A DNA stretch of 64,000 nucleotides, taken from NCBI RefSeq assembly GCF_004331645.1, contig NZ_SJSK01000001.1, positions 992,001 through 1,056,000 on the forward strand, given 5' to 3'. Shown here in pieces: positions 36,112-64,000 of the stretch. The DNA comes from Pedobacter frigiditerrae (GTDB lineage Bacteria > Bacteroidota > Bacteroidia > Sphingobacteriales > Sphingobacteriaceae). Within the stretch, counting starts at the first letter, position 1. Every line of letters starts with the position of its first letter. The translations under genes and the position numbers were made by a program. A model generated the notes under the pieces. That model saw nothing but the letters and a program-made list of their open reading frames with translations. It ran no database searches and was not told the origin of the DNA.

Positions 36112-36124
36112 TTTGAGAAAAAAT

Positions 36125-46128: not shown

Positions 46129-46147
46129 TCAATAAGTAAACATCATT

Positions 46148-47740: not shown

Positions 47741-47860
47741 TAAAAATAAGTAAGAGATTTAGTATTAGATGATTATTGTAAGGTAAGTTAAATAATTTTT
47801 TTTATTCTCCCTTGATAGTCTTGATTGCCACAAATTTTATATATACTATTGTATAGTAAT

Positions 47861-48502
47861 ATGCCTGCACTTGACCTAACCAACACTTGGCTTTTTCGAA
47901 TTATCCATGTCGATAATTTAGAATACCTGCTTGAGCATGGCATGTTCCACAAATCACATATAAACGCCGACCCAAATTACATTAATATTGGCGATAGTAT
48001 CCTTATCCAGCAAAGAAACGATCATGATGTTGGGATTAATCCTCCTAATGGTCAGTTAGGAGAATACGTTCCCTTCTATTTCGGTGGATTATCTCCAATG
48101 TTACTGAATATAAAAACTGGACACAGGGGAATTACGCGAAGACCTCAAGAAGAAATTATCTATATTTGTTGCAGCATTCAGAGTATTCTTGATAAATGTG
48201 AATTGTGGTGTTTTACCGATGGGCACGCTAAAAATGCCATTACAACGTTTTATAATCAAATTAATGACCTTAGTCATGTTGATTTAAAGCTTGCTGGAGA
48301 ACGGTACTGGCATAATACTGATGAAGATTTTGACAAAATGAGAAAGAAACAGGCAGAGTTTTTAGTCAAATTCCACGTTCCTCCAGAATGCATAAGTAAT
48401 ATTATTGTTTACAACGAGGATGCTAGCAAAAGGGTTAGTAAATTAGTTACTGAATCCACAAATAAAATAAAGGTTCATATTTCAAAAAACTTCTATTATT
48501 AA
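47861..48502 (+). CDS. darT: DarT-type DNA ADP-ribosyltransferase toxin (DUF4433)
   Basis: The frame is open from a TTG at 47825, but I choose ATG 47861 (MPALDLTNTWLFRIIHVDNL), giving 213 residues. Family features: the N-terminal LFRIIHVDNLEYLLEHGM NAD-site helix, YVPFYFGGLSPML, and catalytic Glu166 in MRKKQAEFLVKF. DarT attaches ADP-ribose to thymidine bases in single-stranded DNA, blocking replication; in several bacteria it stops phage. Its stop TAA shares one base with the ATG of darG, so the pair is translationally coupled. In the usual order of this system, toxin before antitoxin. Confidence 0.92.
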   Translation: MPALDLTNTWLFRIIHVDNLEYLLEHGMFHKSHINADPNYINIGDSILIQQRNDHDVGINPPNGQLGEYVPFYFGGLSPMLLNIKTGHRGITRRPQEEIIYICCSIQSILDKCELWCFTDGHAKNAITTFYNQINDLSHVDLKLAGERYWHNTDEDFDKMRKKQAEFLVKFHVPPECISNIIVYNEDASKRVSKLVTESTNKIKVHISKNFYY

Positions 48503-49557
48503 TGCGATACATTAAAGGGAATTTATTAGAGGCGAATACTGAAGCTCTTGTCAATACCGTAAATACGGTAGGGGTTATGGGTAAGGGGATTGCTCTGCAA
48601 TTTAAAGAAATGTTCCCTCATAATTATAAACTTTACTTGGCCGCATGTAAAAATGGATTACTCCTTCCCGGAAAATTATTAGCAGTTAAGGACCAAACCC
48701 TACAAGGAGAAAAACTAATTATTAATTTTCCAACAAAAACTGAATGGTTCAAAAAATCTCAATATGATTATATTGAAAATGGCTTAAAAGAACTGGCAAA
48801 ATTAGTTGTTGAGCAAAATATCAAAAGCATTGCGATCCCACCTTTAGGATGTGGAAATGGTGGCTTGAAATGGGATAAAGTTAGGCCAATGATCGAAAAA
48901 TATTTGGGTGATTTAAAAGACGTCGACATAATTGTTTATGAGCCAAACGAGCAAGTCAAACAAATCCTTAAGGCGCAAGATTCAAAAAAGGAGGTGAAAC
49001 TTTCTCCGGCTAAAGCAATGCTTTTGTACGCTATGTATTATTATGATTCTTTAGGGGAAAATACTAGTCTCTTTATTGCGAATAAATTAGCCTATTTCTT
49101 ACAAAGACTTGGTGATCCCAGTTTAAAGAGCTTGAAATTCACTGCCCATCATTATGGACCTTATAGTGTGCAGGTGGAACATATGGTATATGGCTTGAAT
49201 GGCAAATTTATAAAGGGATTAGAACAGATGCAAGTTAAGGCATTTGAACCGCTTGAACTACAATATGATAAGTTGCAAGAGGTTAGCGACTATGTTAAAA
49301 AGGAACTATCTGTTGAACAAAGAAATATTATTAGGCAATTAACAAAACTTATAGATGGCTATCAGTCAGCATTATCAATAGAAATACTGGCGACTGTTGA
49401 TTTTATTAAAAAACAGAATCCAGGTATTTCTAAGGAAGCAGCAATAATTAAAATCAAAAATTGGTCGGAAAGAAAAAGCGAGCTATTCTTAGATAAGTAC
49501 TTAGATATAGCTTGGAAGCATTTAGACGATTACAGTCAAAATTTAAATATAGCCTGA
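48502..49557 (+). CDS. darG: DarG-type macro-domain antitoxin with C-terminal DarT-binding domain
   Basis: 351 residues. Residues 1-150 are a macro domain (YIKGNLLEANTEALVNTVNT, GVMGKGIALQFKEMFP, IAIPPLGCGNGGLKW) that removes ADP-ribose from thymidine in DNA, reversing DarT. Residues from about 170 (PAKAMLLYAMYYYDSLGE, FIANKLAYFLQRLGDP, KFTAHHYGPYSVQVEHM, CWLWM-free helical tail with IKIKNWSERK) form the DarG C-terminal domain that masks DarT directly. Overlaps the darT stop by one base. No terminator follows at once; the next is at 49843. Confidence 0.92.
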   Translation: MRYIKGNLLEANTEALVNTVNTVGVMGKGIALQFKEMFPHNYKLYLAACKNGLLLPGKLLAVKDQTLQGEKLIINFPTKTEWFKKSQYDYIENGLKELAKLVVEQNIKSIAIPPLGCGNGGLKWDKVRPMIEKYLGDLKDVDIIVYEPNEQVKQILKAQDSKKEVKLSPAKAMLLYAMYYYDSLGENTSLFIANKLAYFLQRLGDPSLKSLKFTAHHYGPYSVQVEHMVYGLNGKFIKGLEQMQVKAFEPLELQYDKLQEVSDYVKKELSVEQRNIIRQLTKLIDGYQSALSIEILATVDFIKKQNPGISKEAAIIKIKNWSERKSELFLDKYLDIAWKHLDDYSQNLNIA

Positions 49558-49879: not shown

Positions 49880-50061
49880 TTTCAGCGCACCCCAAAATAT
49901 TCAGGGAACCCAGCCACAAAAATTATATTCGCTATCTGGATATCGTAAATGGTAGTAAACTAGAGTTTAACCTACAAGATGCACCTGATGTAAATTGGGG
50001 AACTAAGATTGGAAATGAGCCCAAGGGGATTGTAGGACAAAACTTAGCCAGAAAAAATTAA
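49880..50061 (+). pseudogene. C-terminal remnant resembling a GH92 alpha-mannosidase
   Basis: The open frame has no start of its own and reads HKNYIRYLDIVNGSKLEF, then a few residues later DVNWGTKIGNEP and a short tail to a stop at 50061. The order I-x-x-x-DI-x-x-G-x-x-L-x-F...P-x-x-NWG is that of the extreme C-terminus of GH92 enzymes (typically I-x-H-x-DI-x-x-GG-x-L-x-F-x-MG...PN-x-x-WG). Only about 50 residues remain and everything upstream is unrelated, so this is a truncated gene, probably cut when the island arrived or was rearranged. Family assignment is by eye. Confidence 0.5.
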
Positions 50062-50791: not shown

Positions 50792-53700
50792 ATGAAAATG
50801 TATAAAGTTTTCTTACATGTCACTTTGGTTGTTGTTGGTTTAATCCAGAGTGTTAACACCGTTAAGGCACAAAATGGAGACCAGATATTAGATGGAATAG
50901 GTGAAACAGGAATGGTTGCACGTTACGTGTTTAACGGAGATACCAAAGACTGGTCTCGAAATAATTTGCATGCTAAATTTCAAGGTACCGAAATTAATTT
51001 TGTGAATGACAATCGATTTGGAAAGGTATTGTCACTCTCTGGCAATAGCAATTCTTTTATTAAGATTCCTGGTGACGCACTAACAGATGTAGAATCACTA
51101 AGTATATCAGGTTGGATATACCTGCGCTCTGAGCAAGTTGGCCAACTTTTTTTTGATTTCGGTAAGGACGCCACTAGGCGTTTTTTTGTTGCGCCAATAG
51201 GTACTAGTGCTAAAAAAGGCTATCAAGCGTTGATAACAACTAAGGAAGGAAATAAATACGAGGTGGTTTCTTCGGCTATAGAAATGAATAAGTGGATTCA
51301 TCTGGCCATAGTGATAGATGTTTCATCAAAATCCATGGTTAGCTATGTTGATGGTAAGGACATAGGAGAAGCTAAGGATATACCAATGGAGTTAAACGCT
51401 GTATTCGGTCAGCAAGCAGGAGAAAAACTGCTTTATATTGGCAAGTCACTAGCGCCAGGAGATCCCTATCTCAATGCCATGATTCATGATTTTCGCATTT
51501 ACCGTGTTCCACTCAATAGCAGGCAGATTGCCGGAATTTATCGCAATGCCCAAAAAGGGCTTAACGAAGGTTTGGTAAATACAACCGGTAAGAAAGAGGA
51601 TGAGCTTCAGCAATTTTCTAAAACCGAAGCGCAGCTTTATAATACTTACCTAATTCGTGTTTCTGATGTGAAAGTGGAAACGGCTGTAGGAAATTTGCCG
51701 CGATTACCCGCTTATGTACAGGGAACTTACCGAAATGAAATCAAAGGCCCAAAAGTGCGTGTGTTATGGCCATCTCCAATTAACAATAGTGCGGTTCTGA
51801 AAGCAGGAAGCTATGTTGTTACAGGCCATGTTGCAGGAACGGATTTTAAACCAAAGGCTATAGTAACAATAAAGGACTCCTTTAGATCAACCACTCCAGT
51901 TTTAAAGCTAGCTTCGTTTCATTTAGATCAAGTTTTGTTAAAGACAGATGCTCATGGGCATAAAACCAAATTTATCGAGAATCGTGATAAGTTTATAAAA
52001 ACATTGGCTAAAACCGATCCTAATTCGTTTCTCTATATGTTTCGTGATGCTTTTGGCCAGAAACAACCTGAGGGAGCGAAACCTTTGGGTGTTTGGGATA
52101 CTCAGGACACCAAATTAAGGGGGCATGCTACAGGTCACTACCTTACGGCAATTGCACAAGCCTATGCCGCTACAGGATACGACAAGGAACTTCAGGCCAA
52201 TTTTTCCAAAAAAATGGAGTATATGATAAACACCCTTTACGCATTAGCACAACTATCTGGAAAGGCCAAAGAACCCGGAGGGGCATTTGTGTCTGACCCT
52301 ACTGCTGTTCCATATGGTACGGGGAAATCAGCTTATGATTCAGATCTGAGTGAAACGGGTATCCGTACCGATTATTGGAACTGGGGGAAAGGATTTATCA
52401 GCGCGTATCCTCCGGATCAGTTGATCATGTTAGAAAGTGGGGCCAAGTATGGAGGACAAAAGAACCAGATTTGGGCGCCGTATTATACCTTGCATAAAAT
52501 TTTAGCTGGCTTAATAGACGTATATGAAGTGAGTGGTAATAAAAAAGCCATTGAAACAGCTACGGGTATGAGCGACTGGGTATATGCCCGCTTAAGCAAG
52601 TTGCCACAAGATACACTCATAAAGATGTGGAATACGTACATTGCTGGTGAGTTTGGGGGAATGAATGAAGTAATGGCTCGTTTGTACAGGATTACGGGCG
52701 ACCAGAAATACCTAAAAACTGCACAATTATTTGATAATATCAAAGTATTTTTTGGTGATCCAGCGCATTCACATGGACTGGCCAAAAATGTGGATCTTTT
52801 CCGTGGATTACATGCCAACCAACATATACCACAAGTTGTCGGGAGTATCGAAACCTACCGTGTTTCCAATGATCCTGAATATTACAAAGTGGCCGATAAT
52901 TTCTGGCATAAGATGGTTAGTGATTATATGTATAGTATTGGAGGAGTTGCAGGCGCACGTAATCCAGCCAATGCAGAATGTTTTATTGCTCAACCAGCAA
53001 CATTGTATGAAAACGGCTTTTCAATGGGTGGGCAGAATGAAACTTGTGCCACCTACAATATGCTAAAATTAACCAGCGACCTGTTTCTCTTCGATCCGCG
53101 GGCAGAGTTAATGGATTATTATGAACGTAGCTTATATAACCATATTCTAGCTTCTGTAGCCGAGAATAGCCCAGCCAATACCTATCATGTGCCACTTGGA
53201 CCGGGATCTATCAAGCAATTTGGTAATCCGGATATGACAGGCTTTACGTGTTGCAATGGTACGGCAATAGAGAGTAATACTAAGCTACAAAATTCAATTT
53301 ACTTTAAAAGCAAGGATAACCAGGCACTTTATGTCAATCTATACATACCCTCAACACTAGATTGGACAGAACGTAAAGTAAAGGTGATGCAGACAACTGA
53401 TTTCCCAAAGGAAGATCATACCCGCCTGACGATTAAGGGCAGTGGGAAATTTGAGGTCAATGTGCGTGTGCCAGGCTGGGCTACTAAAGGATTCTTTGTA
53501 AAAATCAACGGTGTAGCCCAAAAGCTTCAAACTAAACCAGGTAGTTACCTGAAAATTAGCCGTAGTTGGAGAGATGGCGATATCATAGAGCTGAGAATGC
53601 CTTTCCAGTTTCACCTAGACCCGGTTATGGATCAGCAGAATATTGCCAGTCTGTTTTACGGACCAATATTATTAGCAGCTCAGGAGCCTGAAGCTAGAAA

Positions 53701-53857
53701 AGAATGGCGCAAGGTAAGCCTTAATGCTGAAGATATAGGCAAGTCAATTAAAGGCGATCCCAAGCAGTTGCAATTCACGATTGATGATGTTGTTTTTAAA
53801 CCTTTTTATGAAACTTACGGTCGTCACTCGGTTTACCTAGATGTTAAGTTAAAATAG
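50792..53857 (+). CDS. Secreted LamG plus beta-L-arabinofuranosidase (GH127/GH146-type, DUF1680)
   Basis: 1021 residues with a signal peptide (VVVGLIQSVNTVKAQ). Residues about 35-255 are a LamG/concanavalin-like binding domain (VARYVFNGDTKDWSRNN, LSISGWIYLRS, IHDFRIYRVPL). From about 365 (LASFHLDQVLLKTDAHGHK) lies the (alpha/alpha)6 DUF1680 catalytic domain. The cysteine-zinc site is visible: Glu750 and Cys752 (QNETCATYNM) with Cys820-Cys821 (FTCCNGTA), where the first of the pair is the expected nucleophile; Glu729 (AECF) is a candidate acid/base. The C-terminal SLFYGPILLAAQEPE and PFYETYGRHSVYLD regions resemble DUF4986 and DUF6805, typical of GH146. First of three co-directional secreted proteins. 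Confidence 0.88.
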   Translation: MKMYKVFLHVTLVVVGLIQSVNTVKAQNGDQILDGIGETGMVARYVFNGDTKDWSRNNLHAKFQGTEINFVNDNRFGKVLSLSGNSNSFIKIPGDALTDVESLSISGWIYLRSEQVGQLFFDFGKDATRRFFVAPIGTSAKKGYQALITTKEGNKYEVVSSAIEMNKWIHLAIVIDVSSKSMVSYVDGKDIGEAKDIPMELNAVFGQQAGEKLLYIGKSLAPGDPYLNAMIHDFRIYRVPLNSRQIAGIYRNAQKGLNEGLVNTTGKKEDELQQFSKTEAQLYNTYLIRVSDVKVETAVGNLPRLPAYVQGTYRNEIKGPKVRVLWPSPINNSAVLKAGSYVVTGHVAGTDFKPKAIVTIKDSFRSTTPVLKLASFHLDQVLLKTDAHGHKTKFIENRDKFIKTLAKTDPNSFLYMFRDAFGQKQPEGAKPLGVWDTQDTKLRGHATGHYLTAIAQAYAATGYDKELQANFSKKMEYMINTLYALAQLSGKAKEPGGAFVSDPTAVPYGTGKSAYDSDLSETGIRTDYWNWGKGFISAYPPDQLIMLESGAKYGGQKNQIWAPYYTLHKILAGLIDVYEVSGNKKAIETATGMSDWVYARLSKLPQDTLIKMWNTYIAGEFGGMNEVMARLYRITGDQKYLKTAQLFDNIKVFFGDPAHSHGLAKNVDLFRGLHANQHIPQVVGSIETYRVSNDPEYYKVADNFWHKMVSDYMYSIGGVAGARNPANAECFIAQPATLYENGFSMGGQNETCATYNMLKLTSDLFLFDPRAELMDYYERSLYNHILASVAENSPANTYHVPLGPGSIKQFGNPDMTGFTCCNGTAIESNTKLQNSIYFKSKDNQALYVNLYIPSTLDWTERKVKVMQTTDFPKEDHTRLTIKGSGKFEVNVRVPGWATKGFFVKINGVAQKLQTKPGSYLKISRSWRDGDIIELRMPFQFHLDPVMDQQNIASLFYGPILLAAQEPEARKEWRKVSLNAEDIGKSIKGDPKQLQFTIDDVVFKPFYETYGRHSVYLDVKLK

Positions 53858-53985
53858 AAATGTTTTGAGTTTTATATTTCCATTTTAAGGTAAAAGAATG
53901 CTAATATCAGTTAAATTATGAGCTAAGATATTTTTAAGGCCTATTTATCTTTAGTGATTATTTAAAACATAAAATTCCTGAACCA

Positions 53986-55335
53986 ATGCAATTTAATTCC
54001 TTGCCAAAAGGCATATTCTTTACACTGATTGCCTGTTTCTTGTATCCAAATGTGAGTAAGTCCATCCAATCTGAAAAAGATAAAATGGAGAAGGAGGCCT
54101 ATATCCCTGCAAAGGTATGGAGGGTGCCAGAGAACAACGATTATACCAATGATAATAGTGAATACAGCGACAAAAGGCGGATAGAATCTGATAATATCGT
54201 TATTTTTTGGGCCAAAGAATTTGGAGAAGACCCAATGCAAAATGCAGAACCGAACAAACGTTTTAATGTGCGTGATGCGTTAAAGGAATGTGAGCGATTC
54301 TATCAAAGTTATGTAAATGACTTAAAATTGGTGCAAAAGGGAAAATCGCTTACTGATAAGTATAAAATATTGGTATATGTAATAGGGGGCACAGAACAAA
54401 CTGCCTTTGGTGGTGGAGCCGAAAATAAGATTGGTGTTTTATGGACACCAGCTGTACGAATGAATAAAGCACCTTATGGCGCCTTGGCCCATGAGCTAGG
54501 CCACTCTTTTCAATACCTGGCCAGTAACGACAATAGCACTGGGATGGGCGGGCCCATCATGGAAATGTCGGCACAATACATGCTTTGGCAAAACTATCCA
54601 GAATGGATGACTTTCGAAAACTACCATTTGGTAGATTTCATGAAGAAAACACATTATGCATTTCTGCATCCTACTAACATGTACCATAGCCCATACGTAA
54701 TAGAGTATTGGTCTAATAAGCATGGAGTAGATTTTTTTGGTAAATTGATGCGTGAGGTAAAAACAGGTGAAGATCCGGTAATGGTTTATAAACGTGTAAC
54801 TGGTCTTAGTCAAGAACAATTTAATGATGAAATTTTTGATGCTTCACGTCGGTTCATTACCTGGGATATGAAACACATAGAAAATGTGTCCAGGAAATAT
54901 GCCAATCAACACAATAGTACATTTAATGCGGTAACTGGAGGATGGTATCGGATTGCAGCAAACAATTGCCTGCAAAATTACGGGTATAATGGCATCAAGC
55001 TAAAGGTTCCCGCTGTTGGAACTAAAGTTCAATTGGATTTTAAGGGTATAGCAGGAGCTGATGGTTTTAGGGCAATAAAAACTGATATGGCAGGATGGAG
55101 ATATGGTTTTTTGGCAGTTAACAAGGATGGGAGGCGTGTATATGGTGATGTGAATGGCAATGCAATTGGTGCCGTTACCTTTAAAGTGCCTAATGATACC
55201 GAATATTTATGGTTAGTGGTAAGTGGGGCTCCAAAAGAACATTGGTCAGTATCTGGAAAAGACGAAAATAACGAGCAGTGGCCTTATGAGATTAAACTTA
55301 CAGGCACAAGCTTAGACGAATCAGTGGTTAAATAG
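53986..55335 (+). CDS. DUF6055-type secreted protein with an HExxH metallopeptidase-like motif
   Basis: 449 residues with an N-terminal signal (GIFFTLIACFLYPNVSKS). The central ALAHELGHSFQYLA carries HELGH, an HExxH zinc motif, preceded by NKIGVLWTPAVRMNKAPYG and followed by GGPIMEMSAQYMLWQNYPEW. The layout fits DUF6055, a family seen near glycan-degrading genes. The last 130 residues form a beta domain (VQLDFKGIAGADGFRAI, YLWLVVSGAPKEHW). It lies 128 bases after the arabinofuranosidase gene and 166 before the DUF5695 gene. It may process a glycoprotein, but the substrate is inferred only from context. Confidence 0.7.
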   Translation: MQFNSLPKGIFFTLIACFLYPNVSKSIQSEKDKMEKEAYIPAKVWRVPENNDYTNDNSEYSDKRRIESDNIVIFWAKEFGEDPMQNAEPNKRFNVRDALKECERFYQSYVNDLKLVQKGKSLTDKYKILVYVIGGTEQTAFGGGAENKIGVLWTPAVRMNKAPYGALAHELGHSFQYLASNDNSTGMGGPIMEMSAQYMLWQNYPEWMTFENYHLVDFMKKTHYAFLHPTNMYHSPYVIEYWSNKHGVDFFGKLMREVKTGEDPVMVYKRVTGLSQEQFNDEIFDASRRFITWDMKHIENVSRKYANQHNSTFNAVTGGWYRIAANNCLQNYGYNGIKLKVPAVGTKVQLDFKGIAGADGFRAIKTDMAGWRYGFLAVNKDGRRVYGDVNGNAIGAVTFKVPNDTEYLWLVVSGAPKEHWSVSGKDENNEQWPYEIKLTGTSLDESVVK

Positions 55336-55501
55336 AATATTTAAACTTTATGTGGCGTGGCTGATATTTGCACCAGCTCATTGTTGAAAAAAATATCGTT
55401 GATCCTAATATTTTGCCGATTTTACGCTTTAAGCCTCATTAATAACCTTTATTAACAAAATATATTTTTAATTATTGTAATTCATTTAACTAAAATTAGA
55501 C

Positions 55502-58249
55502 ATGTTAAAAAATAAATTCTCAGTTCTCCTATTTTTACTCACTATAGTATTGCTGTGTGAAAGCCCCATTGCATTAATGGCTCAATCGCCATGGAAAGCC
55601 CTTGCAAAAAGACAATCTACTTTAGGATTGGAAAAAGGCTATACTACATTAAATGCCGGGTCATTTAATCTTAAGTTGGTTAATTCCTCGCAAACTGTTG
55701 CAGGCTTGATACCGAAATTGGTAAAGGGTTTTGATTTTACTCCCGGTGATAGCTTAAAAGTGCGGAGTGCAGATGGACTTTATCATTTGGGTGATATTAA
55801 CTTAAGATTAAGAACTGGTAGCGAAACTGAATGGAAAAAATACAATACTGCTGCCAAACGTGCACCAATTAAAGCGTTAAAAGTAGCTGGCAGTGTAATT
55901 GCTGGGGCAGATCTTGCCGCAACATTGCCAAATGATATCCCCTTAGAGGTGAAAAGATTTTGGGAATTACAAGGTGGTCAGCTAATTCTTCGCTTTGAGT
56001 TGAAAAATAAAACTACTCTACCTGTAGAAATAGGTGCATTGGGCATTCCAATGATTTTTAATAATATTTTGGAAGGAAAGACTTTAGAAAAATCGCATTC
56101 TGATAATGTTTTCTACGATCCTTATATTGGAAAAGATGCAGGTTATCTGCAAGTAGCACGACTAAGCGGCCAACCATCAACATTAGTGATAACGCCTTAT
56201 GGAAAAACGCCATTTGAGGCCTACAATCCATTATTAGACGATCCAACACCGCGTGGAATTGTATTCGAAGGTTTTTATGAGTGGATGGTTTATAGTAAAG
56301 CTTACGCGGAAAATGAGTGGAAAAATGCTGAACAATGGAACACACCAACTTCAACCATTTTAAAAGCAGGGGAAACACGTAGTTTTGGTCTTAAATTTTT
56401 ACTTTCGGGGACTGTAAAGAGTATCGAAAGTACGTTGATAGCAAATAATAGACCTGTGGCTCTTTCGGTGCCTGGTTATGTATTGCCTCAAGATGTAAAT
56501 GCGAAATTATTTATTAAGTATAGTAAAAGTGTTAAATCTATATCAATTGAGCCACAAAACTCATTAACTGTAACATCGTCCACAGCAACAAAAAATGGTT
56601 GGAGAACATACCTAGTAAAAGGTAATACCTGGGGTAGGGCCAGATTAACCCTTACTTATGATGATGGGTTAACACAAACTATAAATTATAAAGTAATTAA
56701 GCCAGAAACGGAAGTAATTGCTGCCTATGGAAATTTCCTTACAACCAAACAGTGGTTTAATCAACCAGATCCTATATTTAAACGTAACCCATCAGCTATT
56801 ACCTACGATTATGAGAAGAAAGAACAAGTGGTACAAGATAGTAGAGCTTGGATTGCTGGTTTAAGTGATGAAGGTGGGGCAGGTAGCTGGTTAGGGGCAA
56901 TGATGAAACAATTGGTAAATCCAGATAAGGCTGAGGTTGACAAATTAAAGACCTTTGTAGATACAGTTATGTTTGGGCGTATACAAGTTAAAGAGGGTGC
57001 CAAGAAATTTGGCGTTAAGAAAAGTCTATTCTATTACGAGCCTGATTCGGTACCAAAAGATACGTATAGCAAAGATGTTAATTTTAAAACGTGGTCTGCT
57101 TGGCCAATTAAAGAGGCTAACAATTTAGGTAGGTCTTATAATTATCCGCACGTGGCTGCCGCTCATTGGACTTTATACCGATTGGCACGTAATTACAGGG
57201 GATTGGTTGAGGAACAAAAATGGATGGAACATCTTACTAATGCTGCCGAAACTGGTTTGGCAATGATAAAATTTGCACCTTATTATGCACAATTTGGACA
57301 AATGGAAGGAACGATCTTTTATTTGATTTTAAAAGACCTGCAAAATGAGGGTTTAACAGAAATGGCAACAAAGTTAGAGACGGCAATGAAGAAGCGCGCC
57401 GATCATTGGCGATCATTAGAATACCCTTTTGGTAGCGAAATGCCATGGGATTCTACTGGTCAGGAAGAAGTGTATGTATGGTCTAAATATTTTGGCTATA
57501 ATGATAAGGCCAATGTAACGCTTAATGCCATACTGGCTTATATGCCTGTGGTGCCACATTGGGCCTACAATGGTAATGCCCGTCGATATTGGGATTTCTT
57601 ATATGGAGGAAAACTTTCACGCATAGAACGGATGATACACCATTATGGGTCTGCTTTAAATGCGATACCAGTGTTAATGGATTACCGTCAAAATCCTGAT
57701 GATTTTTATCTCTTACGTACGGGTTACGGTGGTTTATTGGGAGGTATTGCCAATATTACCGAAGATGGTTTTGCGCCAACTGCTTTTCATGCCTTTCCAT
57801 CAACACTTAAAAATGATGGAATAACAGGAGATTATGGCTCTGGATTTTTTGGATATGCGGTTAACACCTCATCTTATTTAATTAACCACAAAGAATTTGG
57901 TTACTTAGGTTTTGGTGGCAATGTGTCTACAAGTGGCGATTTAGTTAAGCTTAAATTAACCACGGCAGCCAAATCAGCTGTTTATATTGCAAGTGCTGGA
58001 CTTTGGATTACCTTAGATGCGGGACAAATTGATGAGGTCTCATATCATAAAGTTTCTGGAGAAATTCGTTTAAAATTGAATGCTGCCAGCCAATATACAC
58101 CAAATGCGTTGATAAGGTTGGCACAGCCGGCTAAAGTGATTGGTGTAAGTAATTATACACTACAAAATAGTAGCGCAAAGAATCATGGGGCTTATCAAAT
58201 TGCGTTGGCCAATGGTGCAAATACCGAAGTTGTCATCACACAAAAGTAA
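55502..58249 (+). CDS. DUF5695-type secreted protein, probable glycan-degradation enzyme
   Basis: 915 residues with a signal peptide (LLCESPIALMAQ). The N-terminal half is a beta-sandwich region starting LGLEKGYTTLNAGSFNLKLVNSSQTVAGLIPK; the middle and C-terminal parts look like an (alpha/alpha)6 toroid (YNYPHVAAAHWTLYRLARNY, SGQEEVYVWSKYFGYND-type stretch, HHYGSALNAIPVLMDYRQNP) and a closing beta domain. This matches DUF5695 proteins of Bacteroidota, which sit in polysaccharide loci; catalytic activity has not, to my knowledge, been shown. Third of three co-directional genes; followed by a terminator. Confidence 0.65.
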   Translation: MLKNKFSVLLFLLTIVLLCESPIALMAQSPWKALAKRQSTLGLEKGYTTLNAGSFNLKLVNSSQTVAGLIPKLVKGFDFTPGDSLKVRSADGLYHLGDINLRLRTGSETEWKKYNTAAKRAPIKALKVAGSVIAGADLAATLPNDIPLEVKRFWELQGGQLILRFELKNKTTLPVEIGALGIPMIFNNILEGKTLEKSHSDNVFYDPYIGKDAGYLQVARLSGQPSTLVITPYGKTPFEAYNPLLDDPTPRGIVFEGFYEWMVYSKAYAENEWKNAEQWNTPTSTILKAGETRSFGLKFLLSGTVKSIESTLIANNRPVALSVPGYVLPQDVNAKLFIKYSKSVKSISIEPQNSLTVTSSTATKNGWRTYLVKGNTWGRARLTLTYDDGLTQTINYKVIKPETEVIAAYGNFLTTKQWFNQPDPIFKRNPSAITYDYEKKEQVVQDSRAWIAGLSDEGGAGSWLGAMMKQLVNPDKAEVDKLKTFVDTVMFGRIQVKEGAKKFGVKKSLFYYEPDSVPKDTYSKDVNFKTWSAWPIKEANNLGRSYNYPHVAAAHWTLYRLARNYRGLVEEQKWMEHLTNAAETGLAMIKFAPYYAQFGQMEGTIFYLILKDLQNEGLTEMATKLETAMKKRADHWRSLEYPFGSEMPWDSTGQEEVYVWSKYFGYNDKANVTLNAILAYMPVVPHWAYNGNARRYWDFLYGGKLSRIERMIHHYGSALNAIPVLMDYRQNPDDFYLLRTGYGGLLGGIANITEDGFAPTAFHAFPSTLKNDGITGDYGSGFFGYAVNTSSYLINHKEFGYLGFGGNVSTSGDLVKLKLTTAAKSAVYIASAGLWITLDAGQIDEVSYHKVSGEIRLKLNAASQYTPNALIRLAQPAKVIGVSNYTLQNSSAKNHGAYQIALANGANTEVVITQK

Positions 58250-58274
58250 GATAGGTTAATATTTAAAATTTAAA

Positions 58275-58306
58275 CCTCGAGGATGTAAAAATCTTCGGGG
58301 TTTTTT
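58275..58306 (+). terminator. Terminator of the DUF5695 gene
   Basis: CCTCGAGGAT at 58275-58284 pairs with ATCTTCGGGG at 58291-58300 (two G-T pairs), followed by TTTTTTG. Confidence 0.75.
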
Positions 58307-58580
58307 GTTTTTATCAAGACGTGAAGAGGCGGAAAACGTACTAAGTAGTGGGTTGTTGCAAGGTATGAAGAAATCTCAAAGCACAATTCTATAAGGGAGA
58401 TCACTTTGTGACTCACAGCAATTTAGCTATAGAATAGCGTGTAAAGCCATTATTTGCAGGACTTCGGTTACAATGCCCATTCTCTTACGTAATTCTATTA
58501 TTCCTAATATGGTTAGTTTTTGATTGCTAAACGATTTTGAATGAGGGGCTAGTATTGATCAATAATACCTATTATAAAAA

Positions 58581-58605
58581 AGGTCGAGATTTTAAGTCTC
58601 GACCT
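58581..58605 (-). terminator. Terminator of the GH97 gene
   Basis: AGGTCGAGA at 58581-58589 pairs perfectly with TCTCGACCT at 58597-58605; on the minus strand a T run follows, 18 bases past the GH97 stop codon. Confidence 0.9.
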
Positions 58606-58622
58606 AATTAGGTTACTTGTTT

Positions 58623-60587
58623 TTAATGAACAGGTGTTAGGATAGCGGTCCAACCACCACCCTTTTCCATATTAATTTCGATGGTATCACTTGCGGTTAT
58701 AGTGCTATTTGATATTTTATAATCGGCAGCATGCCTTGATGCATTAATACCATCACTTAGTACCTCCATTTTATACTGCGTGTTGTCTAAAAACGTAAGC
58801 GAAGCTTTAAATGTCCTTGCATTCCAGTCTGTCATACCCGAAATGTACCAATTGTTACCATTTTTACGTGCAACAACGGCATACTCTCCAACTTTACCTT
58901 CTAAGGCAATGGTTTTGTCCCAAATGGTTGGTATGCGAGAGATGAAATAGGTACAAAGACTATCTTTTAAGTAATTTGAAGGATTGTCGGCCAGCATTTG
59001 TAAAGGACTTTCGTACATCACATACATAGCCACCTGATGTGCTCTTGTACCCATGCTCATTGGTTCAGAGTAAACGATGTTAAAGTTTTTCTTTGTTGCA
59101 TTAAGCATAGCTCCTGGCGTGTAATCCATGGGGCCAGCGGCCATACGAATAAATGGTAACGTGAGATTATGTGTAGGTGTAATTTCTGTACTCCATTTGT
59201 TATTTTCGGCTCCTCTAACACCTTCGTAACTTAATACATTTGGATATTTACGGTTTAAGCCTACAGGTTTATAAGCGCCATGCAAATCAACCATTAGTTT
59301 ATATTTGGCTGCTGTTGCTGCAGTACGTTCATAAAAATTAACCATATACTGTTCGGCACGTGCCATGAAATCTACTTTTATGCCTTTTGCGCCCCATTTC
59401 GCATATTGAGCAAGGATGTTATCCATATCCTTATCTAAAGGCTCCCATAAAGTCCATAGCCAAATACCTACGTTTTTCGATTTTCCGTAGTCAATTAATG
59501 CTTGTATATCTATTGTTTTTGCAGGATTCAATAAATCGGTTGTTGTTCTAGTCCAACCTTCATCCAACATGATATAATCTAAGCCATAGGCTGATGCAAA
59601 ATCTATGTAATATTTATAGGTTTCGGTATTAATGCCTGCCTTAAAGTCCACACCATAAATATTATTGTCGTTCCACCAATCCCAAGCCACTTTACCAGGT
59701 TTTATCCAATCGGTATTGGTAATTACTGAAGGGGTAGAAAGCTTATAAGTTAAATTGTTTACAAGAAGGTCTTTATCGTCTTTACAGATGGCAATACTAC
59801 GCCATGGATATTTTCTTTGCCCAGTAGTTTTTGCAATATAATTAGCTAATTTGGTAATTTTAATACCACGATCTCTCACTGGAATACTTTCTGCAATTAC
59901 TTTTGGGAAACCAGCCGTAAGGTTTTTATCGCCTGTGCCAAATAGAAATAAATTAGGGTAATCGTATAAGTCAGCTTCGCTTACCAACAATTTAGTGCCA
60001 GATGCCGAAAACAATAACATTGGCAATGCTGCATGTTGATTATTGCTAAAAGCTGTTAAAACTGAGTCTTTATACAAGCTTTCGAAATGTGACAAAAAGT
60101 CTTTGTTCTCTTCTTGTGGCCAAAATACTCGGTTATTGCCACTAAAATTGAAATCGGCCGTTTCTCCAGTTACTTCGATCGAGCTTTCCTTTAAATTAGT
60201 TTCGAAACGATAGGCAACCCCATCATTATAGGCACGGAAATAAATGGTATAACCATCTTTAAAATCGAGTTTTAGTTCGTTAAAAAGGTTGATAATTTCC
60301 TTGCTTTTTACCGGAACGGTGGCAATGATTAAGTCGCTATGTAGTTTTAATTGCTGTTTAATTAAAACAGGATTAATTCCTGGCTGTACTTTATGATTTA
60401 AAAGTAATGCAATTGAACTTGGCTGCAAAAGCAATTCGGTGTCTTTACGTACAGACCATGTAACCTTGTCGCTAATTGCAATGCTAATCTTTATTTTATG
60501 ATCTGGCGATAACAGCTCATAATCTTTGGAAAATGCCCTGTTTGTAATCAATAGAGCGATAATAAATAAAATAGGTTTAATGTTCAT
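58623..60587 (-). CDS. GH97 glycoside hydrolase, retaining (alpha-galactosidase-like) type
   Basis: 654 residues with a signal peptide (IIALLITNRAFS). N-terminal beta-sandwich (LLSPDHKIKISIAISDK, typical GH97 opening), then a TIM barrel: KVAWDWWNDNNIYGVDFKAG, GLDYIMLDEGWTR, GAKGIKVDFMARAEQ and NVLSYEGVRGAE, then a C-terminal beta domain. Asp406 in KVDFM and Glu455 in YEGV are placed as the nucleophile and acid/base of the retaining branch, unlike the inverting SusB branch. It diverges from the AraC-type regulator across 340 bases. Substrate is likely an alpha-galactoside, perhaps side chains of an arabinose-containing glycan handled by the preceding genes; that link is inference. Confidence 0.88.
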   Translation of the reverse strand: MNIKPILFIIALLITNRAFSKDYELLSPDHKIKISIAISDKVTWSVRKDTELLLQPSSIALLLNHKVQPGINPVLIKQQLKLHSDLIIATVPVKSKEIINLFNELKLDFKDGYTIYFRAYNDGVAYRFETNLKESSIEVTGETADFNFSGNNRVFWPQEENKDFLSHFESLYKDSVLTAFSNNQHAALPMLLFSASGTKLLVSEADLYDYPNLFLFGTGDKNLTAGFPKVIAESIPVRDRGIKITKLANYIAKTTGQRKYPWRSIAICKDDKDLLVNNLTYKLSTPSVITNTDWIKPGKVAWDWWNDNNIYGVDFKAGINTETYKYYIDFASAYGLDYIMLDEGWTRTTTDLLNPAKTIDIQALIDYGKSKNVGIWLWTLWEPLDKDMDNILAQYAKWGAKGIKVDFMARAEQYMVNFYERTAATAAKYKLMVDLHGAYKPVGLNRKYPNVLSYEGVRGAENNKWSTEITPTHNLTLPFIRMAAGPMDYTPGAMLNATKKNFNIVYSEPMSMGTRAHQVAMYVMYESPLQMLADNPSNYLKDSLCTYFISRIPTIWDKTIALEGKVGEYAVVARKNGNNWYISGMTDWNARTFKASLTFLDNTQYKMEVLSDGINASRHAADYKISNSTITASDTIEINMEKGGGWTAILTPVH

Positions 60588-60927: not shown

Positions 60928-61833
60928 ATGAAAGTACTTCCATTTACCATGCTGGTTCCGGATGACAAAAGTGTTATATCGGAACAAATAGAATTACCAC
61001 ATTTTTATCAATATCTTCATCGTCATGACGAGTGGCAGCTGACCTGGGTACAAGAGGGGGAAGGTACATTGCTTGCAGGAAATAACATGCATTCTTTTAG
61101 CAAGGGAGATATATTTCTAATTGGTGCAAATCTCCCACATTTATTTAAAAGTAATCCAGAATATTTCATTTTGGATAACGATAAGAAGATCAAGGCCTGC
61201 TCCCTTTATTTTAATCCTAACGGAATTCTCAAATCCTTATTTCACTTGCCTGAAATGAGTTTGGTGAATGGCTTTTTAAGTAGCCATAAGCATGGATTTA
61301 AGATACCTGACCAGTATGCAAAAGAAATAGCCAAGGGGGTATTGGATGTCCACCATTCATCTGGTACGGATATCTTGTTTAGCTTTATTAAGTTTCTCAA
61401 TTCATTACAGGGCATCAATTCTAATCTAGAAGCTTTATGTTCAGAAGTATACTCTTCAGATATAACAGAAAATGAAGGTCGACGATTAAGTAATATCCTC
61501 AACTTTATCATGAGGAATTATAACAATCAGATTACCTTAGAGGATGTTGCAAATGCAGCATATATGACCCCACAAGCGTTTTGCCGCTATTTCAAGAAAC
61601 ATACTGGCCATACCTTTATCTCTTTCTTGAATGAGGTAAGGATTAACGATGCGTGCAAAAGCTTAATCTCAGGCCCAAAGGCAGATTGTATATCTGGTGT
61701 AGCCTATAAGGCCGGTTTTAATAGTATCACTAATTTTAACCGGGTGTTTAAAAATATCATTGGCAAGTCTCCTCGGGTTTATATGGATACTTATAATAGC
61801 GTAAGCAAGGTTAAAACAATGGCTTGTAGTTAA
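60928..61833 (+). CDS. AraC-family transcriptional regulator with cupin sensor domain
   Basis: 301 residues. The N-terminal cupin (HFYQYLHRHDEWQLTWVQEG, FSKGDIFLIGANLPHLFK) would bind the inducer; the C-terminal 100 residues hold two helix-turn-helix units of the AraC/XylS type (ITLEDVANAAYMTPQAFCRY and ISGVAYKAGFNSITNFNRVF) with the final KSPRVYMDTY. Diverges from GH97, and precedes the DUF885 gene by 17 bases. Probable activator of the local carbohydrate genes. Confidence 0.92.
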   Translation: MKVLPFTMLVPDDKSVISEQIELPHFYQYLHRHDEWQLTWVQEGEGTLLAGNNMHSFSKGDIFLIGANLPHLFKSNPEYFILDNDKKIKACSLYFNPNGILKSLFHLPEMSLVNGFLSSHKHGFKIPDQYAKEIAKGVLDVHHSSGTDILFSFIKFLNSLQGINSNLEALCSEVYSSDITENEGRRLSNILNFIMRNYNNQITLEDVANAAYMTPQAFCRYFKKHTGHTFISFLNEVRINDACKSLISGPKADCISGVAYKAGFNSITNFNRVFKNIIGKSPRVYMDTYNSVSKVKTMACS

Positions 61834-61850: not shown

Positions 61851-63620
61851 ATGCTTAAACCTATTTATTTTTCTAAAATCGTCTATAGCTTCCTTTTATT
61901 GGTTTTGGCAACAAGACCAAGTTTTGCGCAGAGCGCGCTTTATGAGCAAACCAGTGAAATGGGTACAACAATCATTTCCTATCAAAGAGATATTGCCGCT
62001 ATCCAAGATTTTTATAGCCCGTCTCCACCCAATAATGGGGGTGGCTTTTCATTTAGGGGCAATAATACCTATGCATCTCCCGAGCAAAGGAAGCGATTAA
62101 TTGAAGTAAATGCCGATTACTTGGTAAAGCTGAAGCTATTGACATTTGATAAATTCAGTATTTATGGGAAAGTTGATTATATCTTAATTAAGAAGCAGAT
62201 TACAGCTAACCTAGGGCAGTTAAAAGAGGATGTGCTTGTTTATAAAGAAATTGAAAAATACATTCCCTTTGCCAACGAAATTTACGAGCTGGAAAAATTA
62301 CGCAGAAGAGGTACATATCTACAGGGTTCTGTAATTGCAGTTCGACTTACTAAAATCATGGGTCGGGTTGACTCCGCATCAGCAGTCTTAAGAAAAACAA
62401 ATGATTTCCAGGGAATAAATTTATCCATTGCCAATCGTGCCGTGAATGGCTTGGTTTCTAGGGTTAAGAGTTTTATCGATTTTTATGTGAATTACGATCC
62501 AGAATTTACGTGGTGGGTGCCTAAGCCTGCTGAAGATTTGAGTGCGGCTTTAAATAAGTACGCTCAAAATTTTGTGGTAAAAACAGAAAAAAGAGAAGGT
62601 AATGAAATCATTGGTACGCCTATAGGAAGGGAAGAACTGCAAAGGCAAATCACAGCAGAAATGATTCCTTATACGCCTGAACAGCTTTTACAGCTTGCCG
62701 AAAAAGAATTTGCATTTTGTGATAAGGAATTACTAAAGGCATCGAAAGAAATGGGTTTTGGTACCAATTGGAAAAAAGCGCAAGAGCAGGTGAAAAATAG
62801 CTATGTCCCAGTTGGTAGGCAGCCCGAACTTATTGTAAAGCTACAAAATGATGCCCTTGAGTTTATTAAGGCTAATCAATTAATGGATATTCCCGATTTG
62901 GCCAACGAAACTTGGGAAATGGAAATGATGAGTGCACAAAGACAATTGGTAAATCCGTTTTTTACTGGAGGAAAAGAAATTAGTATCTCCTATCCAACAC
63001 AAGCAATGTCGCAAGAAGACAAGCTGATGAGCATGAGAGGCAATAACCCTTATTTTTCGAGAGGTACTGTACAGCATGAGTTATTGCCCGGACATCACCT
63101 GCAATATTACATGAACAATCGCTACAAAGATTATAGGGGACTATTTTCAACTCCTTTTAGTGGAGAAGGATGGCCATTATATTGGGAGTTATTGTTGTAC
63201 GATAAAGGATTTGCGAAAACACCTGAGGAAAAGATTGGGATGCTATTTTGGCGCATGCACCGTTGTGCGAGGATACTTTTTTCCATAAATTATCATTTAG
63301 GCAAGTGGAATCCGAAACAATGCATAGACTTTTTAGTAGACAGAGTGGGACACGAGAAAGCCAATGCCGAAGGTGAAGTAAGGCGTTCGTTTGAAGGCGG
63401 TTATAGTCCATTGTACCAAATAGCCTATCTGGTAGGTGGTTTGCAAATCATGGCATTAAAAAATGAATTGGTAGATAAGGGCAAAATGTCTTACAAGCAA
63501 TTTCATGATGCAGTAATCAAGGAGAATCAAATTCCGATTGAAATGATAAGGGCAACATTAACCAATCAAAATTTAACGCGAGACTTTACTACGCAATGGA
63601 AATTTTACGATTTTAAGTAA
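61851..63620 (+). CDS. DUF885-family secreted protein
   Basis: 589 residues with a signal peptide (LLLVLATRPSFAQ). The C-terminal region has TVQHELLPGHHLQYYMNNRY, the H-E-x-x-PGHH zinc-type signature of DUF885, followed by FSGEGWPLYWELLLYDKGF and HLGKWNPKQCIDFLVDRVGHEKANAEGEVRR. DUF885 proteins are predicted zinc-dependent hydrolases, related in fold to carboxypeptidases; no substrate is known. It shares a probable transcript with the AraC gene (17-base gap) and precedes a permease gene by 26 bases, which suggests peptide breakdown followed by amino-acid uptake. Confidence 0.85.
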   Translation: MLKPIYFSKIVYSFLLLVLATRPSFAQSALYEQTSEMGTTIISYQRDIAAIQDFYSPSPPNNGGGFSFRGNNTYASPEQRKRLIEVNADYLVKLKLLTFDKFSIYGKVDYILIKKQITANLGQLKEDVLVYKEIEKYIPFANEIYELEKLRRRGTYLQGSVIAVRLTKIMGRVDSASAVLRKTNDFQGINLSIANRAVNGLVSRVKSFIDFYVNYDPEFTWWVPKPAEDLSAALNKYAQNFVVKTEKREGNEIIGTPIGREELQRQITAEMIPYTPEQLLQLAEKEFAFCDKELLKASKEMGFGTNWKKAQEQVKNSYVPVGRQPELIVKLQNDALEFIKANQLMDIPDLANETWEMEMMSAQRQLVNPFFTGGKEISISYPTQAMSQEDKLMSMRGNNPYFSRGTVQHELLPGHHLQYYMNNRYKDYRGLFSTPFSGEGWPLYWELLLYDKGFAKTPEEKIGMLFWRMHRCARILFSINYHLGKWNPKQCIDFLVDRVGHEKANAEGEVRRSFEGGYSPLYQIAYLVGGLQIMALKNELVDKGKMSYKQFHDAVIKENQIPIEMIRATLTNQNLTRDFTTQWKFYDFK

Positions 63621-63646: not shown

Positions 63647-64000
63647 ATGGAAGAAAACACGATGCAATTTAAGCCTAGCCTTAAGTTGATGGATGCTACT
63701 ATGCTCGTTGCGGGTAGCATGATAGGCTCAGGAATATTTATCGTAAGTGCCGATATCACCAGAAATGTGGGCAGCAGTGGCTGGCTACTTGTTGTCTGGC
63801 TAATTACGGGGTTCATGACACTTACTGCTGCCCTTAGTTATGGCGAACTAAGTGCAATGTTTCCCAAGGCAGGTGGGCAATACATATACCTCAAAGAGGC
63901 ATACAACCCCTTAGTTAGTTTTTTATACGGATGGAGTTTTTTTACAGTGATACAAACCGCTACCATTGCAGCGGTAGGTGTAGCTTTTGCTAAGTTCACA
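63647..64000 (+). CDS. APC-family amino acid permease, 5' part
   Basis: 118 codons run off the window end. Start ATG 63647 (MEENTMQFKPSLKLMDATML). The GSMIGSGIFIVSADI segment is the conserved unwound TM1 substrate site of APC transporters, followed by GWLLVVWLITGFMTLTAALSYGELSAMFPKAGGQYIYLKEAY (here quoted in parts: YGELSAMFPKAGGQYIYLKE is the family hallmark) and YGWSFFTVIQTATIAAVGVA as TM3. Inner-membrane amino-acid or polyamine uptake. Likely in the same operon as DUF885. Confidence 0.9.
   Translation, partial: MEENTMQFKPSLKLMDATMLVAGSMIGSGIFIVSADITRNVGSSGWLLVVWLITGFMTLTAALSYGELSAMFPKAGGQYIYLKEAYNPLVSFLYGWSFFTVIQTATIAAVGVAFAKFT

Follow-up and report, generated by a model that had tools for sequence, protein, structure and literature searches.

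Which polymer is used by a locus of Pedobacter frigiditerrae that combines secreted glycosidases with DUF6055 and DUF5695? The original prediction, drawn from the window analysed here (the whole stretch of 64,000 nucleotides), proposed a glycoprotein carrying arabinofuranose and alpha-galactose, with arabinogalactan proteins given as an example.

Organization and extent of the locus

The four reading frames originally predicted lie at the coordinates and on the strands first assigned to them (Table 1), and Pfam bears out their domain names: LamG, Big_4, and the GH127-type catalytic and middle domains, DUF6055, DUF5695, and three GH97 domains. Signal peptides of the locus proteins were judged by eye. 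The locus was also predicted to have no adjacent SusCD importer, which is true inside the window only: when the same contig is read on, a convergent SusD/SusC pair appears 6.6 kb beyond the window end. The missing importer was thus a window-edge effect and, since the locus runs on past the window, the gene set first proposed is about half of it.

Table 1. Features of the locus (window coordinates) and the evidence for their assignment
Feature	Coordinates	Strand	Evidence
GH127/GH146-type beta-L-arabinofuranosidase (putative), LamG + Big_4 N-terminally	50792..53857	+	Pfam; nearest PDB 5opj, 223 bits
DUF6055, predicted HExxH gluzincin-type metallopeptidase, distant Svx relative	53986..55335	+	Pfam; NCBIfam Svx 66 bits; alignment
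DUF5695, large (alpha/alpha)6 putative enzyme, PL27 homologue	55502..58249	+	Pfam; AF2; structure match; profile match
GH97, putative retaining alpha-galactosidase type	58623..60587	-	Pfam; NCBIfam; PDB 3a24, 5e1q
AraC-type regulator	60928..61833	+	Pfam; equivalent position in P. polaris, G033
DUF885 putative peptidase	61851..63620	+	Pfam; HELLPGHH seen by eye
Amino-acid permease, 475 aa, start only in window	63647..64000, continues past edge	+	

Downstream of GH97, the genes for AraC, DUF885, the amino-acid permease and GH43 are followed by convergent ORF317, ORF265, SusD and SusC (69016-75266 in extended window coordinates). In Pedobacter polaris, whose DNA is 89% and 91% identical over two pieces starting at window position 53883, the continuation from AraC through the adjacent SusC/SusD pair is kept in identical order, including GH43>ORF317<ORF265<SusD<SusC<. 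The related genome G033 has this downstream order too, though less alike and with one extra small ORF, and reads DUF6055>DHDPS>ALDH>Hyp epimerase>DAO>DUF5695>GH97<AraC>DUF885>permease>DPP-IV>GH43>, then SusD<SusC<, placing all four hydroxyproline (Hyp) catabolism genes between DUF6055 and DUF5695. The GH127-type gene is the least stable locus member; in P. polaris it is absent from the 9.3 kb upstream of DUF6055. A scan for Bacteroidota promoters stayed at chance level (7 matches against 5.9 expected) and was dropped.

Glycoside hydrolases

The structure closest to the GH127-type protein, 5opj, is one we take to be BT0349 of GH146. Residues E750, C752, C820 and C821 align with 5opj and 8k7y as zinc-site residues, reproducing the Glu-Cys-Cys-Cys arrangement, including the nucleophile cysteine, described for GH127/GH146 (PMC10850190). 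The candidate acid/base E729 aligns with the GEAF glutamate of 6ex6, and the GH146 acid/base glutamate of 8k7y aligns elsewhere. According to the same source, Araf-beta1-Hyp is a substrate of GH146 members (PMC10850190). The GH43 protein weakly matches the model of arabinanase AbnB, an arabinan endo-arabinosidase (21 bits against a cut-off of 750).

In the case of GH97, the best PDB matches are 3a24 (E 5.6e-167) and 5e1q (E 3.4e-166). The motifs KVDF (D406) and SYEGV (E455) align with 3a24, with 5e1q having a glycine instead of D406; by alignment these two residues are the nucleophile and the acid/base, respectively, which is the catalytic pair of retaining GH97 members. The protein scores 744.9 bits over its whole length against NCBIfam NF053844, below the cut-off of 800, and its sequence matches the retaining alpha-galactosidase type, which would be its putative activity.

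DUF6055 and DUF5695

The HExxH motif predicted for DUF6055 (Pfam score 476 bits) is borne out as HELGH at residues 169-173. Together with E193, the candidate third zinc ligand by alignment, H169, E170 and H173 form the Svx-type HExxHx(8,28)E zinc site, invariant in six sequences. The protein reaches 66 bits (E 2.6e-18) with the NCBIfam Svx model NF040510, far under the cut-off of 625, and is on these grounds a predicted gluzincin distantly related to Svx of Pectobacterium, whose substrate is extensin (PMC13164431, PMC10815107, PMC9266454) and which has a left-handed beta-helix domain. A single-sequence search against the PDB gave no match up to E 1. The predicted model of DUF6055 is weak (pLDDT 62.8): its best structural match is modest (Z 10.2), a second look with VIA gave M30/M1/M60 zinc-peptidase matches, and the Foldseek matches were poor, small beta domains (CBM29, for example) making up many of them. 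In this weak model the C-terminal part, where a left-handed, acyltransferase-like beta-helix was sought, forms a beta domain some 130 residues long.

DUF5695 (Pfam score 1322 bits; AF2 model pLDDT 89.8) gave no match up to E 1 in a single-sequence search against the PDB. Its model matches the PL27 L-rhamnose-alpha-1,4-D-glucuronate lyase BACCELL_00875 with Z 34.5 over 639 residues (5no8) and Z 27.2 (5nok), and a profile match to the same enzyme reaches E 6.4e-16. With the beta-sandwich and (alpha/alpha)6 fold of PL27 also found, DUF5695 is a distant homologue of this lyase with a like fold. A DEG motif is common to both; WD, HY and RxYNY are shared in a weaker alignment stretch, which for RxYNY scores only 11 bits, and we take the PL27 catalytic base to be a tyrosine. 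Unlike BACCELL_00875, to which it is 15% identical, DUF5695 has an extra C-terminal beta-sandwich and residues H550 and E655. Owing to the (alpha/alpha)6 barrel, a GH121-like role was also considered and rejected, PL27 being favoured by a wide margin (Z 34.5 and 27.2 against 19.5 and lower); GH121 is not among the best 50 structure matches, which in itself excludes nothing. For a remote paralogue of DUF5695, no useful solved relative was found.

Both families had been described at the outset as having no established activity, and in the open-access texts searched, as far as these were available, we found no account of their function in bacteria; each does have a characterised distant relative, Svx for DUF6055 and PL27 for DUF5695.

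Genomic context of DUF5695

The neighbours of DUF5695 in 80 named loci were grouped into clusters, each named by one representative. At least two of the four Hyp-catabolism genes lie within 10 kb in 31 of these loci, and all four in 21; none of the four enzymes occurs in the fetched flank of 48, a part of which is due to contig ends. Within the same 10 kb, the counts are proline racemase 29, ALDH 28, DHDPS 27 and DAO 26 for catabolism, M1 23, DUF885 21, aminopeptidase P 19, DPP-IV 16 and M24 14 for peptidases, and GH127-type 39, GH43 13 and GH97 9 for glycosidases. DUF6055 is a rarer companion (only 6/80 loci), found within 15 kb in 11 of the 60 genomes having both. Loci with at least two Hyp genes include one from an Acidobacteria MAG and three from Flavobacteriaceae, in which the epimerase and DAO genes are the ones within reach.

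Among 300 genomes of the order, the proline-racemase/hydroxyproline-epimerase family PF05544 is present in 116/120 with DUF5695 versus 57/180 without. In 65 of the 95 genomes for which positions of both are listed, the two lie at most 15 kb apart; random placement in an assumed 5.3 Mb genome would give about 0.6%. Genome counts and distances were taken from related genomes. The distances use one main DUF5695 position per genome, together with DUF6055 positions that exceed the cut-off. They leave out weak second DUF5695 matches, the broken G051 gene, the weak G220 match and the short DUF6055 fragment in G176, but include the second full-length DUF5695 copy in G055; the presence counts cover all genomes concerned. 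A scan for GH88/105 was uninformative (match in 288/300 genomes).

In P. frigiditerrae itself the PF05544 protein is classed as a 4-hydroxyproline epimerase (595 bits, cut-off 376), adjoined by DAO, ALDH and DHDPS genes. By family, the trans-4-hydroxyproline pathway (epimerase, D-Hyp oxidase/dehydrogenase, deaminase, semialdehyde dehydrogenase) is present, the epimerase alone passing an equivalog cut-off and the other three being assigned by similarity to the neighbours' genes and by gene order. This operon stands on a different contig from the locus, and inside the locus in relatives. L-Arabinose genes also occur beside DUF5695 (ribulokinase in 5/5 FGGY genes tested, AraD in 2/2, L-arabinose isomerase in 2/3), where GH127-type, GH43 and GH51 enzymes recur.

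Target of the locus

These data support the predicted glycoprotein target with arabinofuranose and alpha-galactose, most strongly through the tie of DUF5695 loci to Hyp catabolism and proline-specific peptidases. The combination of beta-L-arabinofuranosidase, alpha-galactosidase and Svx-related peptidase puts extensins ahead of arabinogalactan proteins. We consider it probable that the locus serves the use of hydroxyproline-rich glycoproteins from plants (or green algae), with those of extensin type as the likeliest target. Extensin carries Ser-alpha-Gal and Hyp-Ara1-4, and carrot extensin is cleaved by Svx (PMC13164431). Against this reading, the Rha-GlcA cap that PL27 targets belongs to arabinogalactan protein, and a uronate on extensin is not described in the available parts of the cited papers. 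Also against it stand the separate contig of the Hyp operon in P. frigiditerrae, the missing GH127-type gene in P. polaris, the rarity of DUF6055 near DUF5695, the loci that show no Hyp enzyme, and the weak model and low Svx score of DUF6055.

Arabinogalactan protein is kept as a possible target because PL27, the homologue of DUF5695 (Z 34.5, profile E 6.4e-16), acts on it. Here DUF5695 would remove the rhamnose cap from glucuronate, GH97 the alpha-galactose from alpha-Gal-Araf side chains, and GH146/GH43 the arabinose, with peptidases cutting the core. Such cores are likewise Hyp-rich and alpha-Gal-Ara is reportedly present in gum arabic; PL27 releases rhamnose from gum arabic (PMC8377490), and terminal beta-Araf is found in arabinogalactan proteins (PMC10850190). 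We nevertheless regard this alternative as unlikely: the tested sugar-catabolic genes beside DUF5695 are those of L-arabinose (ribulokinase 5/5), and PL27 has Trp and Ala at the positions of the invariant H550 and E655, where the alignment itself is weak. A further 82 neighbours on the same strand were compared, one for each cluster and drawn from 151 listed; among the matches listed, GH43 is the sole glycosidase family with two matching members, beside one rhamnogalacturonan lyase. This is a weak argument, since the listing covers 25 of 129 families and clusters were counted, not loci.

That collagen or gelatin, hence animal hydroxyproline, is the substrate is scarcely credible, as arabinose is absent from collagen and GH127-type, GH43, GH51 and L-arabinose catabolism genes recur near DUF5695, although prolyl peptidases and Hyp catabolism fit it as well. 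It is also very improbable that this is an ordinary pectic arabinan/rhamnogalacturonan locus with two chance neighbours, given that DUF5695 keeps company with prolyl peptidases and Hyp catabolism much more often than chance would allow and that neither GH28 nor pectate lyase was found among the scanned locus proteins. The weak arabinan endo-arabinosidase match of GH43 speaks for it, as does the origin of BT0349 in a Bacteroides rhamnogalacturonan-I locus (PMC10850190), which on our assumption for 5opj is that of the closest solved relative of the GH146-type enzyme.

Proposed pathway and related systems

With this gene set a soil bacterium of the Pedobacter type most likely takes arabinose and galactose off plant cell-wall glycoproteins, cleaves their polypeptide core and lives on the sugar as well as the hydroxyproline. 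With an extensin-type glycoprotein as substrate, secreted GH146-type and GH43 enzymes would strip beta- and alpha-L-arabinofuranose from Hyp-arabinosides, and GH97 would take the single alpha-galactose off serine. DUF6055 and DUF885 may cut the Hyp/Pro-rich backbone, exposed or still glycosylated, while DUF5695 may break one further glycan bond. Glycopeptides and Hyp/Pro would be imported via SusC/SusD and the permease, AraC would sense the product, and hydroxyproline would pass via Hyp epimerase, D-Hyp oxidase, deaminase and semialdehyde dehydrogenase to alpha-ketoglutarate.

What is known of the breakdown of extensin, a cross-linked plant wall glycoprotein, comes mainly from bifidobacteria and soft-rot pathogens. 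The beta-arabinooligosaccharide system HypBA1/HypBA2/HypAA of Bifidobacterium longum (GH127, GH121 and HypAA) uses cysteine glycosidases and an importer of its own to take beta-L-Araf chains off hydroxyproline-rich glycoproteins (PMC7263609, PMC10850190), as the present locus is predicted to do. Unlike that system, which has an ABC importer, the present locus has SusCD and no GH121 among its Pfam matches, and it adds peptidases, GH97 and DUF5695 together with a link to Hyp catabolism. The company of Hyp and arabinose catabolism genes also separates DUF5695 from BACCELL_00875. The SusC/SusD pair, secreted glycosidases and AraC regulator are those of SusCD-type polysaccharide utilisation loci of Bacteroidota, from which this locus differs by its peptidases, its amino-acid permease and the complete operon for amino-acid catabolism that it includes in relatives. 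The available parts of the open-access literature on extensin/HRGP utilisation loci, including an in-silico paper on Latescibacteria (PMC4454575), do not describe this locus.

We tentatively propose, as a possibility short of probable, that DUF5695 constitutes a new family of carbohydrate-active proteins, related to PL27 and adapted to Hyp-linked extensin glycans, which with DUF6055 glycopeptidases, DUF885 and Hyp catabolism forms a widespread bacterial system, represented so far in Bacteroidota and a single Acidobacteria locus, using sugars, peptide and hydroxyproline of plant cell-wall glycoproteins together. If the readings proposed here are right, DUF5695 would be a candidate new CAZyme family, DUF5695 and bacterial DUF6055 would gain a specific, testable substrate, and the system would offer a genomic marker for hydroxyproline turnover in soil.

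Composition and extent of the locus

The four open reading frames and domain names of the original prediction agreed with the ORF listing and with Pfam, while its statement that no importer of the SusCD kind is adjacent proved an effect of the window edge. The locus has a SusCD pair on the contig beyond base 64000; after GH97 the genes follow in the order AraC, DUF885, amino-acid permease, GH43, ORF317, ORF265, SusD and SusC, with a second SusC-SusD pair beyond the first. The genome search returned one DUF5695 and one DUF6055 gene, both at the locus, and four GH127-type genes.

Features of the locus and of the surrounding window (positions above 64000 refer to the extended window)
Feature	Position	Strand	Content
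Three SusC-type genes	16550-37741		at least 13 kb upstream of locus; CHU_C protein and S41 peptidase interspersed
Putative partner of third SusC-type gene	36113-37741
Two TcmP genes and a DUF5131 gene	45268-47740		TcmP (three-Cys-motif partner) genes on either side of DUF5131
DarT, then macro-domain protein	47825-49557		between peptide release factor gene and GH127-type gene
Stretch without listed ORF of at least 120 aa	49557-50792		about 1.2 kb
Short reading	~49950-50060		by eye, resembles tail of broken secreted-protein gene
First gene	50792-53857	+	LamG, Big_4, GH127-type catalytic and middle domains (Pfam)
Second gene	53986-55335	+	DUF6055 across almost full length (Pfam)
Third gene	55502-58249	+	DUF5695, 1322 bits (Pfam)
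GH97 gene	58623-60587	-	convergent to the other three (Pfam)
Amino-acid permease	63647-		runs beyond window edge
GH43	past window edge		F5/8C and LamG domains
ORF317, ORF265, SusD, SusC	69016-75266	opposite to GH43

The nearest named relative at the locus is Pedobacter polaris (DUF5695 95%, SusD 94% and SusC 97% identical), in which DUF6055 and DUF5695 are followed by a reversed GH97, by AraC, DUF885, permease and GH43 in the forward direction, and by reversed ORF317, ORF265, SusD and SusC. In a second genome of the order (G264), DUF6055, GH43, SusC and SusD all run in one direction, and a third (G033) carries the module as one stretch: DUF6055, DHDPS, ALDH, Hyp epimerase, DAO and DUF5695, a reversed GH97, then AraC, DUF885, permease, DPP-IV and GH43, followed by SusD/SusC. 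Since gene order is conserved in the three relatives examined, the SusCD pair probably serves the substrate of the locus.

Elsewhere in the window, SusD-type partners were identified by Pfam for two of the upstream SusC-type genes, those whose partners the scan covered; these upstream genes are taken to belong to other loci. The DarT and macro-domain genes look like a DarTG-type toxin-antitoxin pair.

Genomic neighbours of DUF5695

Neighbours within 10 kb were clustered for the best 80 of 167 confirmed named DUF5695 loci, some of whose flanks end early at contig ends, and clusters were named from one representative each or through their resemblance to proteins of the window. GH127-type is the commonest partner (39 of 80); next come proline racemase/Hyp epimerase (29), aldehyde dehydrogenase (28), DHDPS-family (27) and DAO-family oxidase (26), SusC (25), M1 peptidase (23), DUF885 (21), SusD (20), aminopeptidase P (19), DPP-IV-type S9 (16), another M24 (14), GH43 (13) and AraC (12); GH97 (9), GH51 (9) and DUF6055 (6) are rarer.

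The steps of trans-4-hydroxy-L-proline catabolism, as outlined in PMC4364671, correspond to four of these enzyme families (proline racemase/Hyp epimerase, aldehyde dehydrogenase, DHDPS and DAO), the pairing with the later steps being in part presumptive. All four occur in 21 of the 80 loci, at least two in 31, one in a single locus and none in 48; the loci with Hyp enzymes include three from Flavobacteriaceae, in which only the epimerase and DAO fall inside the flank, one from a Sphingobacterium and one from an Acidobacteria MAG. L-arabinose genes adjoin DUF5695 in one locus each of Mucilaginibacter, Gemmatimonadetes, Longimicrobiales, Bacteroidales and Terriglobia. Among the genes tested beside DUF5695, FGGY genes, present in eight loci, were ribulokinases in 5/5 cases, and AraD (2/2) and L-arabinose isomerase (2/3) were also identified. 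Four loci (L086, L112, L117, L124) carry remote DUF5695 paralogues near DUF5695, with 18-21% identity to the window protein; a single-sequence search with the one tested (L124) returned no useful solved relative.

The GH127-type gene is the least constant member of the locus. Collinearity with P. polaris begins only at window 53883, and no GH127-type gene occurs in the 9.3 kb upstream of P. polaris DUF6055; proteins at least 55% identical to that of the window lie near DUF5695 in 18 of the 80 loci (one a contig-end fragment), in hosts that include Pedobacter, Pontibacter, Rufibacter and members of Flavobacteriaceae. The ORF-poor stretch preceding the gene may be an insertion scar, given the apparent broken-gene tail and the divergence from P. 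polaris upstream.

Association with hydroxyproline metabolism

Among 300 genomes of the order, DUF5695 is found in 120 (in G220 by a weak partial match only, in G051 as a broken gene), PF05544 (proline racemase/Hyp epimerase family) in 173, and DUF6055 above cut-off in 64. PF05544 accompanies DUF5695 in 116 of 120 genomes versus 57 of 180 without it, and DUF6055 in 64 of 64. PF05544 and DUF5695 are at most 15 kb apart in 65 of the 95 genomes with both places listed (about 0.6% expected for random placing in 5.3 Mb). The distance between DUF6055 and DUF5695 is no more than 15 kb in 11 of the 60 genomes that carry both, and no more than 40 kb in 19 (chance expectation at 40 kb about 1.5%). Because all 300 genomes are related, Fisher values exaggerate the association, and the distances are not independent. 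DUF6055 occurs in two lengths in these genomes (open frames of about 440-500 and 610-665 residues), which co-occur in several; the window carries the short form.

The window's own genome has its Hyp operon on another contig (C7). Its epimerase passes the cut-off for 4-hydroxyproline epimerase (595 against 376 bits); its oxidase, dehydrogenase and deaminase, which passed no equivalog cut-off among the matches listed, were named through similarity and gene order.

Predicted enzymes and substrate

The GH127-type enzyme has as its nearest solved relative 5opj, which we take to be BT0349 of GH146; the Zn ligands are conserved and the acid/base register is uncertain in the alignment. GH97 matches the alpha-galactosidase 3a24 over its full length with nucleophile and acid/base aligned, scoring 745 bits, under the cut-off of 800.

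In the alignment, the HExxH motif of DUF6055 is followed 20 residues later by an invariant Glu, and the protein gives a distant match to Svx, the Pectobacterium extensin-cleaving peptidase, across the peptidase region. The top structural matches of its weak model (pLDDT 62.8) are zinc peptidases, with M30 lugdulysin at Z 10.2 (264 aligned, 5.2 A), then M1 aminopeptidases and, lower, M60 glycopeptidases, all at modest Z values. The Svx fold is reported as closest to M60 ZmpB (PMC9266454), and a fungal DUF6055 protein has been placed in peptidase family M106 (PMC11241649).

The confident DUF5695 model (pLDDT 89.8, pTM 0.90) comprises a beta-sandwich, an Ig-like domain, an (alpha/alpha)6 barrel and a C-terminal beta-sandwich. 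Its best structural match is the PL27 lyase BACCELL_00875 (5no8; Z 34.5, 639 aligned, 3.1 A, 15% identity), the next-best other protein reaching Z 19.5, and a whole-sequence profile search confirms the homology (E 6.4e-16). DEG (from D456) is common to both in the stronger alignment stretch (36 bits). RxYNY (R544-Y548), E646, WD (697-698) and HY (714-715) are also common and H550 and E655 of DUF5695 are not shared, pairings that are tentative because their stretch scores 11 bits and could not stand alone.

This homology is the main argument for AGPs, rather than extensin, as the target, since PL27 enzymes free rhamnose from gum arabic via beta-elimination (PMC8377490). Svx is reported to cleave extensin from carrot, which carries Ser-alpha-Gal and Hyp-arabinosides as its glycans (PMC13164431), and extensin is the best fit for the GH146-type, GH97 and DUF6055 genes. 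The glycoprotein target originally proposed is retained at the level of the Hyp-rich class, with extensin preferred to the AGPs then suggested; we consider the extensin-type reading somewhat favoured. In the open-access literature searched, no account was found of DUF5695 function or of the module; breakdown of Hyp-arabinosides and extensin by bacteria is already known from other systems. A predicted beta-L-arabinofuranosidase, an alpha-galactosidase, an Svx-related peptidase and linked Hyp and proline-peptide metabolism together indicate that the locus very probably targets hydroxyproline-rich glycoproteins in general, a conclusion held more firmly because the extensin and AGP readings share this protein class.
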